A stretch of 41,615 nt of DNA from Methylococcaceae bacterium. GTDB taxonomy: Bacteria; Pseudomonadota; Gammaproteobacteria; Methylococcales; Methylomonadaceae. This document shows positions 8,544-13,780 of this stretch, in pieces. The stretch covers positions 1-41,615 of the forward strand of contig QYQN01000013.1 in NCBI GenBank assembly GCA_007280895.1, given 5' to 3'. The notes under the pieces are model-generated. The model did no database searches, had not been told where the DNA came from, and was given only the letters and a program-made list of their open reading frames with translations. How positions within the stretch are numbered: position 1 is the stretch's first letter; every line of letters starts with the position of its first letter. The translations under genes were made by a program, and so were the position numbers.

Positions 8544-9449
8544 TTACTGCACAGAACCATTTAAATTTTTATGGGCTTTAATCAATTTTCTTAAGTAAGC
8601 AAGAAAATCATCTTTAAGCTCTTTGTGCAACATACCATGCTCTACAGTAGCAATTAAAAAACCTAACTTTGAGCCACAATCATAACGCCGACCTTCAAAT
8701 TCATACGCTAACACTTGCTCATCTAACATTAACTCAGCGATAGCGTCAGTAAGCTGAATTTCACCTCCTGCGCCGCGCCCGGTTTTTTTAATTTTATCGA
8801 AAATAGTTGGGCTTAAAATATAACGTCCAACCACCGCTAAATTAGAAGGCGCATCTTCTGGCTTAGGCTTTTCAATGATAGTTTCCACAACAGCAGATAA
8901 GCCGGTGAAGTCAGCCGTTTTGACTATGCCATAGCTTCCTGTATCAGAAGGATTAACACGCTCAACACCTAAAATTGAACAATGATTTTGTTCATACAAT
9001 TTTACCATTTGCGCCATACAACCACGCCCAGCATCTTCAATTAAATCATCGGCTAAGATAACAGCAAAAGGCTCATCGCCAATAACAGGACGCGCACAAT
9101 AAACAGCATGACCTAAACCAAGCGCCTCGGCTTGACGAATAAAAATACACGAAACATGTGCCGGTAAAATATCGCGAATTAAATTTAATGTTTCGACTTT
9201 ATTTTTTGCCTCAAGCTCTTTTTCCAATTCGTAGGCTTTATCAAAATGATCTGTAATCGCATTTTTACTACGTCCAGTAATAAACACCATGGTATCAATA
9301 CCTGCCGCAACCGCTTCTTCCACAGCATATTGAATCAATGGTTTATCCACAATAGGCAACATTTCTTTTGGACTAGCTTTAGTTGCAGGTAAAAAGCGTG
9401 TACCCAAACCTGCAACAGGAAAAACTGCTTTGGTGATTATTTTACTCAT
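8544..9449 (-). CDS. galU: UTP--glucose-1-phosphate uridylyltransferase
   Basis: Makes UDP-glucose from UTP and glucose-1-phosphate, feeding polysaccharide, glycogen/sucrose and envelope synthesis. About 301 aa, typical. The nucleotide-binding signature VFPVAGLGTRFLPATKASPK opens the protein. Later motifs include DKPLIQYAVEEA, GLGHAVYCARP and the sugar-binding EKPKPEDAPSNLAVVGRY. An in-frame ATG eight codons earlier exists, but AAGGATAG lies seven bases before the ATG at 9449, and the family begins there, so I use 9449. It stands alone between terminators. Confidence 0.95.
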   Translation of the reverse strand: MSKIITKAVFPVAGLGTRFLPATKASPKEMLPIVDKPLIQYAVEEAVAAGIDTMVFITGRSKNAITDHFDKAYELEKELEAKNKVETLNLIRDILPAHVSCIFIRQAEALGLGHAVYCARPVIGDEPFAVILADDLIEDAGRGCMAQMVKLYEQNHCSILGVERVNPSDTGSYGIVKTADFTGLSAVVETIIEKPKPEDAPSNLAVVGRYILSPTIFDKIKKTGRGAGGEIQLTDAIAELMLDEQVLAYEFEGRRYDCGSKLGFLIATVEHGMLHKELKDDFLAYLRKLIKAHKNLNGSVQ

Positions 9450-9594
9450 GAACCTATCCTTTTTTATTATCAAACTAAAAACCTACGTCAAAAACGTAGC
9501 TGAACGTCAACACTCCCACCTGCTAATGGCGTTATTATAAGCTGAATTGTATCCTGATAATACCGCCCCAGCAGTTGCCAATACACGGCCAACG

Positions 9595-10329
9595 TTACGC
9601 TATTTTTTTAAGTGCGGCTAAGCGATCTTGAACGCTTGCACTTAACTCTGGCTGACCACTGACCGCAGCCATCGCCGCTTTAATATCTGGATTATCTTCA
9701 ATCACGGTAGGTTGCAATAAACTAGCTTTACGTGAAGCCGCATCAGCGGCCACCAATGATTGTTCAGCTAAATGATTCATGTGATCCAAAGCTGAACTTA
9801 ACGACGACGAACTTCCTGATAAACCACTTGCCATTTTTGCTGCGGCTTCTTTTTCTAACGCTTGTTCTTTGATTAACTTTGCTCGCTCCATCGCTTTTTT
9901 AGCTTGCTCAACGGTCGCGCGTGCACTGGTTAATTTCGACGCATACTGTTTAACTAAGCCCTCTAATTCTTGCATATATTGCTTTGCCTCGTCTGCCTCC
10001 TGTTTTTCTCTTTCCACATCAGCGTGCATTGTTTCCAATAACGTCACTAATTGCGTTAAAGCCTCAGCTTTTTCAGGCAGTGTCTGCAAATGTTCAGCCG
10101 CCGCTAAGCGTTGGTTATACAGAGCAATAATTGTACGTGCCTCGTTATCTTCTTTAACAAATGCTTGTTTTGCTTTAGAAAATGTCAAATTTAATTTATC
10201 AAATTTTTCCTCTATTTCTGCAATTGCCGCCTCAGTTGCACCTTCAGGATCAAACTTAACAATTGCCTCACCTAATAAATTTGCCAAATCTTTCGCTTTT
10301 TGAATACCGTAATTTTTAAAAAATGCCAT
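9595..10329 (-). CDS. PspA/IM30-like coiled-coil protein, YjfJ type
   Basis: A 244-aa, almost entirely helical, charged protein without signal peptide or membrane helix; heptad-rich coiled coil covers about residues 35-165. The serine cluster GSSSSLSSALDHM (about 173-185) and a C-terminal tail ending in VQDRLAALKK resemble the YjfJ branch of the PspA/IM30 (ESCRT-III-like) family, which coats or repairs the inner membrane. The assignment rests on pattern, not alignment. The neighbours support it: the next upstream gene is DUF2491-like, and E. coli yjfJ and yjfK are adjacent in the same way. It is transcribed with the two upstream genes (88-bp gap). Another coiled-coil function is possible. Confidence 0.6.
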   Translation of the reverse strand: MAFFKNYGIQKAKDLANLLGEAIVKFDPEGATEAAIAEIEEKFDKLNLTFSKAKQAFVKEDNEARTIIALYNQRLAAAEHLQTLPEKAEALTQLVTLLETMHADVEREKQEADEAKQYMQELEGLVKQYASKLTSARATVEQAKKAMERAKLIKEQALEKEAAAKMASGLSGSSSSLSSALDHMNHLAEQSLVAADAASRKASLLQPTVIEDNPDIKAAMAAVSGQPELSASVQDRLAALKKIA

Positions 10330-10417
10330 GTCTACTTCCTAATGTGTAAAATTAATTAATTAATTGCTCTCACGCAGCACTTCAACGCTGCTCAGCAAGA
10401 AAAATTCAACGTCAATA

Positions 10418-11026
10418 CTAGCCTAATAAGGTAAACAGTGCTGGATCAATATCAAAACCTACATAAAAACCAACCTCTGCACGCTGTGCTTGCTCACTTA
10501 CTTCAACGACAATACGGAGTTTTTCCACACACGTGCTTGACGGCACTGTTCTAGCAAAGATCATTAACGAATTTTCGCCTTCAGCAACCCCACTTTCCGT
10601 TTGCAATCGTTCCGTAAATCTAATTAATTCAGCCTGTTGACTCGCGCCACCCACGGTACGAGTAAAAATAATATCATCCATCTCAAACTCAGGACTGGCC
10701 ATATCATGCAACACCTCCACCCACTCTTCCTCTGTTGGCGTAAGCGTTAAAATATTTTGATACAGACTAACGGACGTTACTTTATTCTCTGCCAAGGTAA
10801 TAGCAAACACATAAAAGTTGCCCTTATTCTCAGCATAAATACAGGTATCGATAAGTTGATCCTGCGCAAAGTTTTCACCAATTGCCTTAATAAAAAAAAG
10901 TCCTTCTGGACGAACAAAAGCAGGATGTAAGTCCACGCCAAGTGTATCGACCAAATTAACTTCAAGATGACTGGTCAAAGATACCTGCAATCCATGCGGT
11001 TTTGAAGGGGTAAATTTGCTAAACAT
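10418..11026 (-). CDS. DUF2491-family (YjfK-like) cytoplasmic protein
   Basis: A 202-aa soluble protein with no membrane helix or signal peptide. It begins with a GLQVSLTSHLEVNL-type strand and continues with alternating beta strands, including EGLFFIKAIGE and a middle segment EEEWVEVLHDMASPEFEMDDIIFTR. The layout fits DUF2491, a family of unknown function seen in E. coli YjfK next to a PspA-like protein. The start ATG at 11026 forms a TAATG overlap with the stop of the upstream TAXI-domain gene, so the two are translationally coupled. It precedes the PspA-like gene. Function is unknown; a role in membrane-stress response is inferred from the neighbourhood only. Confidence 0.55.
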   Translation of the reverse strand: MFSKFTPSKPHGLQVSLTSHLEVNLVDTLGVDLHPAFVRPEGLFFIKAIGENFAQDQLIDTCIYAENKGNFYVFAITLAENKVTSVSLYQNILTLTPTEEEWVEVLHDMASPEFEMDDIIFTRTVGGASQQAELIRFTERLQTESGVAEGENSLMIFARTVPSSTCVEKLRIVVEVSEQAQRAEVGFYVGFDIDPALFTLLG

Positions 11027-12543
11027 TATTGTTTCACGGCCTCTTTGTAATTGTTCTCAAGATCAGTCAGTGCTAAGGCAATTTTTGCCGCACTATCAGC
11101 GTGTGTTGTACGCCAATTGGTGCGCATGACAAACAGCGCAGGGGTGACAACCGTCGCAACAAAACGATCACCAAACACTCCTTTTGCCTGAATGGCCTTA
11201 CTGTAATCAGCAGAAGATAAGGTGCGCTTTTGATAAACCTTACTTTGCGTTAGTTTTTCATCATCAATAGCCAGCAACTGCAAGTCATCTCGATCAATTA
11301 AGCGATCAATAGCTGCCGCATGTGGCGCCGCCATATAAAACAAACAAGCACGCTGCGCAATGGCTTTCAAAATTGCATCTTGATAATTTACCGCCGACCT
11401 AAGCTTAACGCGTTGATAAGCAGGATTTAACGCCACAAAGCGTTGCCAAGATAAACTAGAACCAGACCGATTTGGAATCCATAATTCGTTATCAGCAAGC
11501 TCAGATAATTTGGTAATGGACAACGCTGTACTACAGGCTAAATGCGCGGCTTCCAAAAAAGGCGTAAATAACACCTCCAATTGTTGTGCATCGTAATCTG
11601 CATCGCCTTGAATAAACCCAGCATCACAGTCACCACTTGCTAATTTGGCTAAAATTTCAGGCGTGCCCTGAGTGATAATTGGGCTCACATTAACCCATTC
11701 GACTAACGCCGGCAACATTAACGATTGTGCAATTTTGTAATACGCGCCCCCCTCTGAACCAACACAAATCTTAAAATCAGCTTGACTGGACTTTAAGGCT
11801 TCCTCAGACATAACTGCTGCAACAGGAACATTAGCAGGCAACCAATTAGGGTTAATTGGCGTGGCAGTTTGGCTGTTTTTAACTGCATCCAAAGAAGCTA
11901 ATTGCGCTTTCAAGTCGACATTGTCTTTGGCTAACTGATCTGCCTCAGTACGCCATTTTTGATAATCTGGATCTTGCTGATGGTGATAGGCGTATTGTCC
12001 GGCTGAAGCATTATTATTTAATAAACTGTATAAAAATAATCCTGATAACAAGCCAAACGTATGGCTACCACCATTAACTGTCATCGGTGCTTGCGCTTGA
12101 TAATATTGGGTGCGTTCATGCCAACGATTGGGCGAACGCTGAGCTTGCCGATACCACGCATGACTAGAATACGAGCTACGGTATCGTTGCAAATCAGCCG
12201 GAGGAAAATAACGTGGCTTCGTAGAACTTACCGAATTTGGCAAGGCGTTATAGGCACGCTTTGCAGACTGTTGTGTATATTGACGCTCAAATGTGGAATT
12301 ATACTGGGTACCAAATTTTGAACTAACTGATGTTTTTTTACTGCTATACGCTGGCCTAGACCACCCCGGACTGGGTGCAGAATACGCTCTAGTCGACTTA
12401 AATCTAGTGCTAGATGAACTCCGCGAGCTGTAACTCTTTGCTAACACCGACTCTGAAAGTATGGCACCCATAACCATCATCAGCACTAAAATTGATGTAG
12501 AGGAATTAAACCAACGAGATGCCGTTATGGATTGATTTTTCAC
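11026..12543 (-). CDS. Membrane-tethered TAXI-type periplasmic ligand-binding protein
   Basis: About 505 aa from a GTG start at 12543. GAGG lies eight bases before this GTG, whereas the longer frame begins with TTG at 12609 without a binding site. Residues about 12-35 form a hydrophobic signal/anchor (ILVLMMVMGAILSESVLAKS). A long Ser/Tyr/Arg-rich low-complexity segment follows, then a short hydrophobic patch (FGLLSGLFLYSLL), a short coiled coil, and from about 255 a TAXI/TRAP-type solute-binding fold (ICVGSEGGAYYKIAQSL; later GDCDAGFIQGDADYD). TAXI proteins normally work with TRAP permeases, but none is present. It is coupled to the DUF2491 gene and divergent from a KirBac channel, suggesting sensing rather than import. 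That role is inference. Confidence 0.65.
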   Translation of the reverse strand: MKNQSITASRWFNSSTSILVLMMVMGAILSESVLAKSYSSRSSSSTRFKSTRAYSAPSPGWSRPAYSSKKTSVSSKFGTQYNSTFERQYTQQSAKRAYNALPNSVSSTKPRYFPPADLQRYRSSYSSHAWYRQAQRSPNRWHERTQYYQAQAPMTVNGGSHTFGLLSGLFLYSLLNNNASAGQYAYHHQQDPDYQKWRTEADQLAKDNVDLKAQLASLDAVKNSQTATPINPNWLPANVPVAAVMSEEALKSSQADFKICVGSEGGAYYKIAQSLMLPALVEWVNVSPIITQGTPEILAKLASGDCDAGFIQGDADYDAQQLEVLFTPFLEAAHLACSTALSITKLSELADNELWIPNRSGSSLSWQRFVALNPAYQRVKLRSAVNYQDAILKAIAQRACLFYMAAPHAAAIDRLIDRDDLQLLAIDDEKLTQSKVYQKRTLSSADYSKAIQAKGVFGDRFVATVVTPALFVMRTNWRTTHADSAAKIALALTDLENNYKEAVKQ

Positions 12544-12811
12544 AAGTAAAGCCTCATTTGATAAAAAAATGTTGACACAATAATGCACTAAGTTAACCTG
12601 ATCTGACAACTAACGGCTTTAACTATTGTTGTGTAATAGGTATTGTACGACAATAGCAGATGATTAAAAATTTCCTAATTTAAACCGCTTAGTGGCTAAA
12701 TTTTCACTTCTCCACACCCCAAGACAGCTTATTAAACAGCTGCAAACAAGTAAGCTACGCCGCTTTAACTTTTCTAAATACATATAAGTTATTTAAACAC
12801 TGGAGAACGTA

Positions 12812-13780
12812 ATGGCTCAACCCAAAACGCAATATCGGGATAAAAAAACAAACTACTTCCAAATGCAGATTAAAGGACGCAGCTTAATTCCTCACCTTGA
12901 TGTGTATCATTGGTTAATGCAATGCTCGTGGTTTCAGTTTTTAGGTTTATGTGCAGCTATTTTTATACTACTTAACGTTTTTTTTACCTGCTTATATTTG
13001 CTTGAACCAAACAATATTTTCAATGCACGCAATCAAAGTTTTGAAGATACGTTTTACTTTTCTATCCAAACTTTTGCCACCATTGGTTATGGGTATTTAA
13101 CACCTGCAACACGCTGGGCTAATTTAATTGCCATAACGGAAGCCTTTGTTGGTATTTTTAGCACCGCAGTCATCACAGGCGCAGCGTTTTCGCGCTTATC
13201 TCGGGTCAATGCAAAGGTGTTATTTACGGAAAAAATAGTCGTCAACGCCCGCAATGGCGTGCCACATTTACAAATTCGTTTAGCTAACTGGCGTCATAAC
13301 AATGTTGTCGAAGCGCAGTTACGCGTCGCCATGTTAATCACCGAACAAACCCTTGAAGGTGAAACAGTACGGTATCCCCTTGACCTACCTTTAGTTCGCA
13401 GTCGTACTGATCATTTCCGTTTAACCTGGACAGCAATGCATCGCATAGACCAATCTAGCCCCTTGTGGGGCGCCGATTCAATGCAACATCTAACCAGCTT
13501 AAATGCAGAATTTTTAGTTACCTTTATTGCGCAAGACCAAACACTTGGGCAATTAATTCATGCACATCATAATTATCAATTACAAGATATTGCCTGGAAT
13601 GCACGCTTCGCTGATGTACTAAAAATTCGTGCAGATGGCGTTAGAGAATTAAACTACCATGATTTTCATAACATTATTGAACTCCCAGGCGAGATTGATT
13701 GGAGTACACCTGGTTATGAACAAAGTTATCCGTGGACGAATAAAGCTAGAAACCAACAGCCACCACTGGCTGTTGAGTAA
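12812..13780 (+). CDS. KirBac-type inward-rectifier potassium channel
   Basis: Two-helix potassium channel with a cytoplasmic immunoglobulin-like domain, 322 aa. An amphipathic slide-helix region (about 30-45) precedes TM1 (FLGLCAAIFILLNVFFTCLYL, about 47-67). The pore loop has selectivity filter TIGYGYLTP (about 92-100). TM2 (ANLIAITEAFVGIFSTAVITG) follows, then the beta-rich IRK domain to about 300. GGAG six bases before the ATG supports the start. It is divergent from the TAXI/DUF2491/PspA-like operon, and ion channels recur near yjfJ/yjfK-type genes in other bacteria. A nine-pair hairpin lies inside its last codons. The filter has Tyr where many KirBac proteins have Asp after GYG. Confidence 0.88.
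   Translation: MAQPKTQYRDKKTNYFQMQIKGRSLIPHLDVYHWLMQCSWFQFLGLCAAIFILLNVFFTCLYLLEPNNIFNARNQSFEDTFYFSIQTFATIGYGYLTPATRWANLIAITEAFVGIFSTAVITGAAFSRLSRVNAKVLFTEKIVVNARNGVPHLQIRLANWRHNNVVEAQLRVAMLITEQTLEGETVRYPLDLPLVRSRTDHFRLTWTAMHRIDQSSPLWGADSMQHLTSLNAEFLVTFIAQDQTLGQLIHAHHNYQLQDIAWNARFADVLKIRADGVRELNYHDFHNIIELPGEIDWSTPGYEQSYPWTNKARNQQPPLAVE
13754..13775 (+). terminator. Hairpin inside the 3' end of the KirBac gene
   Basis: CAACAGCCA (13754-13762) pairs perfectly with TGGCTGTTG (13767-13775) around a four-base loop, just before the stop codon. No T run follows, so it may be an RNA-stabilising end rather than a true intrinsic terminator. Confidence 0.4.

Follow-up and report, generated by a model that had tools for sequence, protein, structure and literature searches.

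Within the 41,615-nucleotide contig QYQN01000013.1 of a Methylococcaceae bacterium (this whole stretch is referred to here as the window), three consecutive minus-strand genes encode a TAXI-type solute-binding protein carried on a stem (stem-TAXI), a DUF2491 protein and a helical hairpin protein, and a KirBac potassium channel gene is divergent from them. All four open reading frames (ORFs) lie where a preliminary description of this DNA had placed them (Table 1), and three of the names given there are borne out by Pfam: the TAXI domain by NMT1_3 (PF16868; 29.5 bits against a cut-off of 27), the DUF2491 protein by PF10679 (51.2 against 25, over profile positions 1-209 of 210) and the channel by IRK_C (PF17655; 78.8 against 22.5), the last of which also aligns to KirBac3.1 (E 1.4e-54) with the potassium filter TIGYG present. 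The cut-off of the NCBIfam model TRAP_TAXI (TIGR02122) is not reached by the window TAXI protein (24.4 against 84.35 bits). The stem-TAXI ORF stays open upstream to a TTG at 12609, and the N-termini in an alignment of six orthologues favour the GTG start; measured from this likely start, the KirBac gene begins 268 bp away, close to the 270 bp first proposed, and the TAATG coupling described between TAXI and DUF2491 is likewise present. Compared with the close relative G133 (G numbers designate genomes and L numbers loci), the ratio of non-synonymous to synonymous substitution rates (dN/dS) is 0.03 for the hairpin gene, 0.14 for DUF2491, 0.11 for TAXI and 0.05 for KirBac, so that all four genes look to be under purifying selection; three comparisons with L024 yielded no dS, and a galU comparison, being in a wrong frame, is set aside. 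The nearest homologues among named records come from an uncultured Methylococcaceae bacterium and from Methylovulum/Methylobacter genomes, which makes a methanotroph the probable host.

The TAXI, DUF2491 and hairpin genes form a conserved unit. Five of the 151 genomes of the family sample match the DUF2491 protein, and all five (G000, G133, G089, G015 and G120) keep the three genes together in the order TAXI-DUF2491-hairpin; the wider surroundings of the window are common to G133 but not to G089, G015 and G120. The co-occurrence of all four genes in relatives had been named beforehand as a test, and in this respect the linkage of the three genes stands, while that of KirBac does not. A scan for two peptide patterns only, over a collection of 84,980 species genomes, gave 10 loci. 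Stem-TAXI genomes number 12, namely the five above plus G103 (M. psychrotolerans), G659 (M. oryzae), G662, G660, G636, G582 and L041 (an ectosymbiont, Ca. Thiosymbion). DUF2491 is the next gene in nine of them, its start overlapping the TAXI stop by one base in the window, G133, G015, G120, G662 and G659 and by four bases in G089, with a gap instead in L041 and G660 (340 bp in the latter); the L041 protein has no Pfam match and was assigned by BLAST (26.5% identity, E 2.8e-11). As for the other three, the contig ends in G636, no match was found in G103, and an unassigned ORF overlaps the stem-TAXI gene in G582. This last ORF, which is 170 aa long and has no Pfam match at E ≤ 0.01, may be a shortened DUF2491; the stem-TAXI gene that it overlaps is divergent (both within L114:926-3009). 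A whole or partial hairpin gene follows DUF2491 in eight of the 12 genomes, being cut by the contig end in G662.

When approached from the hairpin side, the same linkage extends beyond genomes with TAXI. An alignment of hairpin proteins matches 36 of the 301 genomes of the order at E ≤ 0.001 and 25 at E ≤ 1e-12, and all 25 of these loci were inspected. DUF2491 stands beside the hairpin gene in 20 of them, including two fusion loci in which DUF350 lies between and the broken copy of G659. The Pfam cut-off is passed by the DUF2491 proteins of the window, G034, G070, G536 and G571; that of G051, with no Pfam match at E ≤ 0.01, was assigned by alignment to its neighbours' orthologues, and those at the remaining loci by profiles built in this analysis, where E-values for sequences that are themselves in alignments A4, A7 or A8 hold by construction. 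The five hairpin matches without adjoining DUF2491 are those of G635, G652, G660, G582 and G636 (the last a 38-residue fragment), and in G660, G582 and G636 the stem-TAXI gene is on a contig other than that of the hairpin match. Hairpin genes without adjoining DUF2491 were noted at L079:4976-5704, L080:6139-6870 and L081:6412-7143, one of them directly behind a glycosyltransferase gene. Pairwise identities correlate over seven triads (r 0.92-0.97), which is not used here as evidence, since shared ancestry alone gives such a correlation. At the level of the class, the hairpin search (E ≤ 1e-8) matches one of 369 genomes, the window's own, and PF10679 at least seven of 369; whole-genome family searches of this kind give lower bounds, because the PF10679 search missed the window's own DUF2491 (51 bits in hmmscan). 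Among the seven PF10679 neighbourhoods, the canonical order is present, whole or in part, in L094, L095, L097, L098 and L100, while L096 is partly readable and L099 unreadable from the ORF calls.

Table 1. Features of the TAXI-DUF2491-hairpin locus in the window
Feature	Coordinates	Strand	Details and basis
Stem-TAXI gene	11026..12543	-	505 aa, GTG start at 12543; ORF call, NMT1_3, orthologue alignment
Predicted cleavable signal peptide, residues 1-35	12439..12543	-	Hydropathy peak at residues 17-35; cleavage site by eye
Ser/Thr/Tyr/Arg-rich stretch, residues 36-156	12076..12438	-	Composition, sequence
Stem core, residues 157-252	11788..12075	-	Profile search of 3018 ORFs; Azospirillum fusions
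TAXI domain (putative solute-binding), residues 248-505	11029..11802	-	Y268, T294, Q312, E331, Y403, M404; C260, C306, C337, C400
TAATG overlap, TAXI stop/DUF2491 start	11024..11028	-	Read in the sequence
DUF2491 (YjfK-type) gene	10418..11026	-	202 aa; PF10679; hydropathy
Helical hairpin gene, probable distant PspA/YjfJ relative	9595..10329	-	244 aa; profile and fold comparison
KirBac channel gene, divergent neighbour	12812..13780	+	IRK_C, KirBac3.1 match; judged outside the unit

The stem core also occurs without TAXI. Ten stem-TAXI proteins supplied a profile of 96 residues, with the Ser-rich stretch left out; among the ORFs of the fetched loci, and besides its own members, duplicates and fragments, it matches L041 (3e-29), G536 (2e-13), G034 (7e-12) and G582 (1.4e-7), together with overlapping loci. 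The gene order in G034 is DUF350, stem with transmembrane helix (stem-TM), DUF2491 and hairpin gene. In G536, a member of the Methylococcales, signal peptide, stem, TM helix and DUF2491 (74.2 bits) form a single protein, behind which lie DUF350 (107.9 bits) and the hairpin gene. G571 has a Ser-rich-TM-DUF2491 protein (48.6 bits), in which the profile did not recover the stem core, as well as a hairpin gene and a DUF350 gene that shares 57% identity with its G536 counterpart. When the window protein was used as a tblastn query on plasmids, it gave five records, all from Azospirillum and all in genes annotated as DUF2491; in the three that were read, stem-TM-DUF2491 is accompanied by DUF350 and by a protein annotated as ‘hypothetical’, which the hairpin profile matches with E-values from 2.7e-77 to 4.8e-82. 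Azospirillum hairpin and fusion queries each matched 15 plasmid records, 14 of them common to both (12 Azospirillum, 2 Bosea), with only the DUF2491 part of the fusion query matched in Bosea. Nine non-TAXI proteins were examined, namely the fusions of G536 and G571 and seven Ser-rich proteins. Each has two hydrophobic segments, one N-terminal and the other close to the C-terminus or ahead of DUF2491, and after the second of these positive residues outnumber negative ones. Of the nine, just G034 and G536 have a recognisable stem core; the remaining Ser-rich proteins were assigned on account of their position, a start resembling a signal peptide, their Ser content and the helix. These fusions suggest that the stem lies outside and DUF2491 in the cytosol.

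In the stem-TAXI protein, Ser and Thr make up 33% of ORF residues 20-120, and the stem core consists of a conserved FGxLSGxFLYxLL segment, then HxxDxDYxxWRxEA and then a coiled segment. Topology was read from a hydropathy threshold of 1.3 over 19 residues and inspection. Ahead of the TAXI domain, only the N-terminal segment (residues 17-35, GTG numbering) reaches this threshold in the window, and no further peak precedes the domain in any of the stem-TAXI proteins scanned, which are those of the window, L041 and L026; one weak peak (1.42) falls within the window TAXI domain, where the model shows a strand. The junction after residue 35 is presumably a signal peptidase I site, to judge from the -3/-1 rule, hydropathy and inspection only, and with no Cys near the signal peptide the protein is not a lipoprotein by sequence. 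Because the non-TAXI relatives have a helix before DUF2491 and stem-TAXI has no later peak, export is predicted for the stem and the TAXI domain, and a cytosolic location for DUF2491, which has no hydropathy peak of TM quality. The preliminary description had the TAXI protein membrane-tethered and remaining anchored, for which we find no support, the stem helix of the relatives being absent from the TAXI version. Signalling through DUF2491 also seems harder than it proposed, with a TAXI protein apparently devoid of any TM segment after the signal peptide and a DUF2491 that appears cytosolic. The FGLLSGLFLYSLL segment was considered as a TM helix that would place TAXI in the cytosol and was rejected, as in the window it is below the threshold, and since relatives have a strong helix in addition to their counterpart of the segment, counting it would put DUF2491 outside.

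The window TAXI domain has the two-lobed fold of solved TAXI proteins. When read from alignments, the contacts Y45, S75, Q93, E125, Y200 and M201 of VcGluP, as given in PMC11574862, correspond in that order to the six non-cysteine residues of Table 1, and across 11 sequences these positions hold Y (11), T (9) or S (2), Q (11), E (11), Y (10) or L (1) and M (8) or V (3). The domain is likely to bind a solute, at a site of glutamate type, which agrees with the earlier proposal that it reads one. Its four cysteines are invariant in 11 of 11 TAXI domains; the L041 homologue has no Pfam match at E ≤ 0.01. The absence of a permease of the tripartite ATP-independent periplasmic (TRAP) type, remarked on earlier, is upheld, in that DctM (PF06808) was matched in none of nine genomes, eight of them stem-TAXI genomes including the window's, by a route that can miss divergent members and was positive in seven of 14 control genomes. 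Other Methylomonadaceae encode a different TAXI protein, with an apparent N-terminal TM segment and no stem (L027:9439-10782, L028:7408-8697, L030:3855-5156 and L031:6512-7861); no TRAP gene was recognised near these loci by eye, and the L027 copy lacks the equivalent of VcGluP Y200.

The third protein had been called PspA-like. Such an identity from Pfam alone had to be rejected, as the hairpin protein has no match to PF04012 (PspA/IM30) at E ≤ 1, against 172.3 bits for the YjfJ control, but comparison by profile and fold suggests a distant relation to YjfJ/Vipp1. Its profile-profile alignment to YjfJ scores 36.1, against at most 19.3 in 40 shuffles, and beats every shuffle and reversal. The model consists of a short N-terminal helix, a hairpin (28-81/85-170) and three shorter helices after it, and with this model the first eight Foldseek matches are all Vipp1 structures (best E 2.4e-3). 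On these comparisons, both of which the relation needed, the hairpin protein is probably a distant PspA/YjfJ relative. PF04012 was not found in the window's genome by family search, with the sensitivity limit given above, and a PDB sequence search with the DUF2491 set gave no matches.

An interpretation to which we would give about an even chance is that the minus-strand trio represents a yjfJKL/PSP-like (phage shock protein) envelope-maintenance module in a derived form fitted with TAXI, which a glutamate-like ligand modulates. The hairpin protein, in the YjfJ/PspA position, would assemble at the inner membrane, on its cytosolic side, with DUF2491 (YjfK) as its cytosolic partner, made by translational coupling, while the third protein would be exported, its Ser-rich stem bearing the TAXI Venus-flytrap domain, which would bind a glutamate-like solute in the periplasm and modulate the module. 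Because the TAXI version is without the stem's TM helix, the signal step would need a membrane-spanning partner. The exported arm would have been rebuilt, TM helix and fused DUF2491 being replaced by TAXI and DUF2491 becoming a separate, coupled protein; the direction of this change, from fusion to split, is guessed from the presence of the fused form in two classes.

Several observations weigh against this interpretation. Its weakness lies in signal transfer: no known component crosses the membrane in the window version, and no TM segment connects the window stem-TAXI to the cytosol. The topology of the three Azospirillum fusions, which have both core and helix, is less certain because of two hydrophobic peaks close to the N-terminus. 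With regard to the hairpin protein, the alignment probability to YjfJ is 51%, the model is modest (pLDDT 70.7, pTM 0.47), Foldseek finds no PDB match under E 0.001 for it, and VIA-align puts other helical proteins level with Vipp1. The unit is also not always intact: M. psychrotolerans has stem-TAXI but no DUF2491 or hairpin match, G635 and G652 (92% and 76% complete) have the hairpin gene but no DUF2491 or TAXI match, and the hairpin gene after DUF2491 is frameshifted in M. oryzae (L036:9904-10800). Finally, DUF350 was not found in the window's genome, which weighs little, since the same type of search missed the window's own DUF2491.

The alternative that survives best, although we consider it rather unlikely, is that stem-TAXI is an orphan that binds solute for a transporter whose gene lies elsewhere, as in TAXI-GltS, with adjacency to DUF2491 and the hairpin gene reflecting co-regulation only. 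TAXI proteins without TRAP permeases do exist, and an elongated, helically dimerised one is coupled to gltS (PMC12344293); moreover, the TAXI contact residues look functional, and M. psychrotolerans keeps stem-TAXI alone. The divergent neighbour of stem-TAXI in G636 is an ATP-binding cassette (ABC) permease (BPD_transp_1, 93.1 bits; L039:6394-7797), and a major facilitator superfamily (MFS) gene lies two genes upstream in G089. However, no transporter gene recurs beside stem-TAXI in the neighbours tested (GltS was not searched for in the genome), which elsewhere include an aminotransferase, an HI0933-like flavoprotein, RsfS and a PhnA-type protein; the frequency with which DUF2491 is the next gene, and the stem core that links stem-TAXI to the stem-TM-DUF2491 fusions, also speak against a mere binder. 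Less probable still is the reading in which the hairpin protein has no relation to PspA and is a common coiled coil, the trio then being a surface or structural assembly without a role in membrane remodelling. The lack of a PF04012 match would fit, as would a PDB profile search with the hairpin orthologue set, which gave three chance matches only, and the failure of VIA-align to separate Vipp1 from other helical proteins, whereas the leading Foldseek matches, the margin of the YjfJ alignment over its controls, the helix layout and the operon position with DUF2491 and DUF350 all agree with YjfJ or Vipp1.

KirBac occurs in four of the 151 family genomes (E ≤ 1e-8), including two of the five with DUF2491, and G007 and G124 carry it without a TAXI or DUF2491 match. 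It adjoins the unit in two of the 12 stem-TAXI genomes, the window and its close kin G133, being divergent in both, and BLAST of KirBac against the ORFs of 24 loci, which represent every one of the 12 stem-TAXI genomes (several by short contigs), gave matches in these two only. On this distribution KirBac was rejected as a member of the unit, and it is probably only a neighbour. The four-part circuit first proposed, in which TAXI senses a solute and controls membrane repair as well as potassium flux via KirBac, is very improbable: the divergent position of KirBac in the window and G133, the channel of canonical yjf operons and the TrkA gene of M. psychrotolerans may be cited for it, whereas three of the five DUF2491-bearing genomes are without KirBac, and KirBac differs in type from that channel. 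In M. psychrotolerans (L026:9020-12104) the lone stem-TAXI gene is divergent from a TrkA-type potassium-uptake gene; with KirBac in the window, this makes two cases of a potassium gene that diverges from TAXI. A GalU-like nucleotidyltransferase gene on the same strand adjoins the unit, downstream in the window (8544-9473) and G133 and upstream in G089 (L024:10675-11574); the GalU-like proteins of the window and G089 are 43% identical.

DUF2491 is almost without literature, a full-text search having turned up one paper that names it, and two papers disagree on its nature. PMC11237479 credits it with predicted enzymatic activity, whereas PMC12492005, which also reports yjfIJKL as up-regulated in heat-evolved E. 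coli, proposes YjfK as a likely primitive outer-membrane porin, although the paper's own membrane predictors did not confirm this. The stem-TM-DUF2491 fusions speak against a porin and argue for a cytosolic DUF2491; they further reveal an exported domain as a partner in the module, for which the methanotrophs offer a candidate ligand. The unassigned PSP-like operon thereby becomes accessible to binding and topology experiments. More tentatively, and with considerable doubt, the locus may be a solute-gated PSP-like system, in which a periplasmic glutamate-binding Venus-flytrap domain, placed on the exported stem that in other genomes is joined across the membrane to DUF2491, tells a bacterial ESCRT-III-like protein when to act; if true, this ties membrane remodelling to an osmolyte or nutrient signal. 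The variant occurs in some methanotrophs and one worm symbiont, in which the exported protein has gained a domain predicted to be of glutamate-binding type.

When considered beside known systems, stem-TAXI differs from the TAXI-TRAP proteins VcGluP and TtGluBP in the fusion of TAXI to a stem, in its invariant cysteines and in the lack of a DctM match in the nine genomes searched. A TAXI protein is shown with GltS instead of TRAP in PMC12344293, and the unit resembles that system (BP0403) in an N-terminal extension with a helical segment before TAXI, in translational coupling and in the absence of TRAP genes; it departs from it in that the coupled partner is DUF2491 and not a transporter, and stem-TAXI is not a lipoprotein by sequence. 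With PspA and Vipp1, which are ESCRT-III-like membrane remodellers, the hairpin protein shares the modelled long hairpin and short N-terminal helix, and Vipp1 leads its Foldseek matches, but PF04012 does not detect it. That yjfJ-type PspA is linked to DUF2491 and a potassium channel is known in print, PspA operons with DUF2491, DUF350 and a potassium channel being described in PMC11237479; among the literature matches listed, from a search that left most subscription journals outside, no paper links TAXI to PspA or DUF2491. The parallel to yjfJ-yjfK drawn in the preliminary description is supported, since DUF2491 adjoins a YjfJ-related, PspA-type hairpin gene as in E. coli yjfIJKL and the PspA-DUF2491-potassium channel-DUF350 class, and several non-TAXI relatives have DUF350. 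From the canonical yjf/PSP set (DUF2170-PspA dyad, potassium channel, DUF2491, DUF350, DUF1190 and GSP synthase), only DUF2491 is over its cut-off in the unit, which is without DUF2170, DUF350, DUF1190, an RCK-type channel and GSP synthase. KirBac is of another type than the yjf operon channel, which is Ion_trans_2 with a TrkA-like domain in the loci examined and in PMC11237479. The stem profile is unmatched in the canonical loci fetched, and what the window unit adds to this class is a stem protein, predicted to be exported, that carries TAXI.

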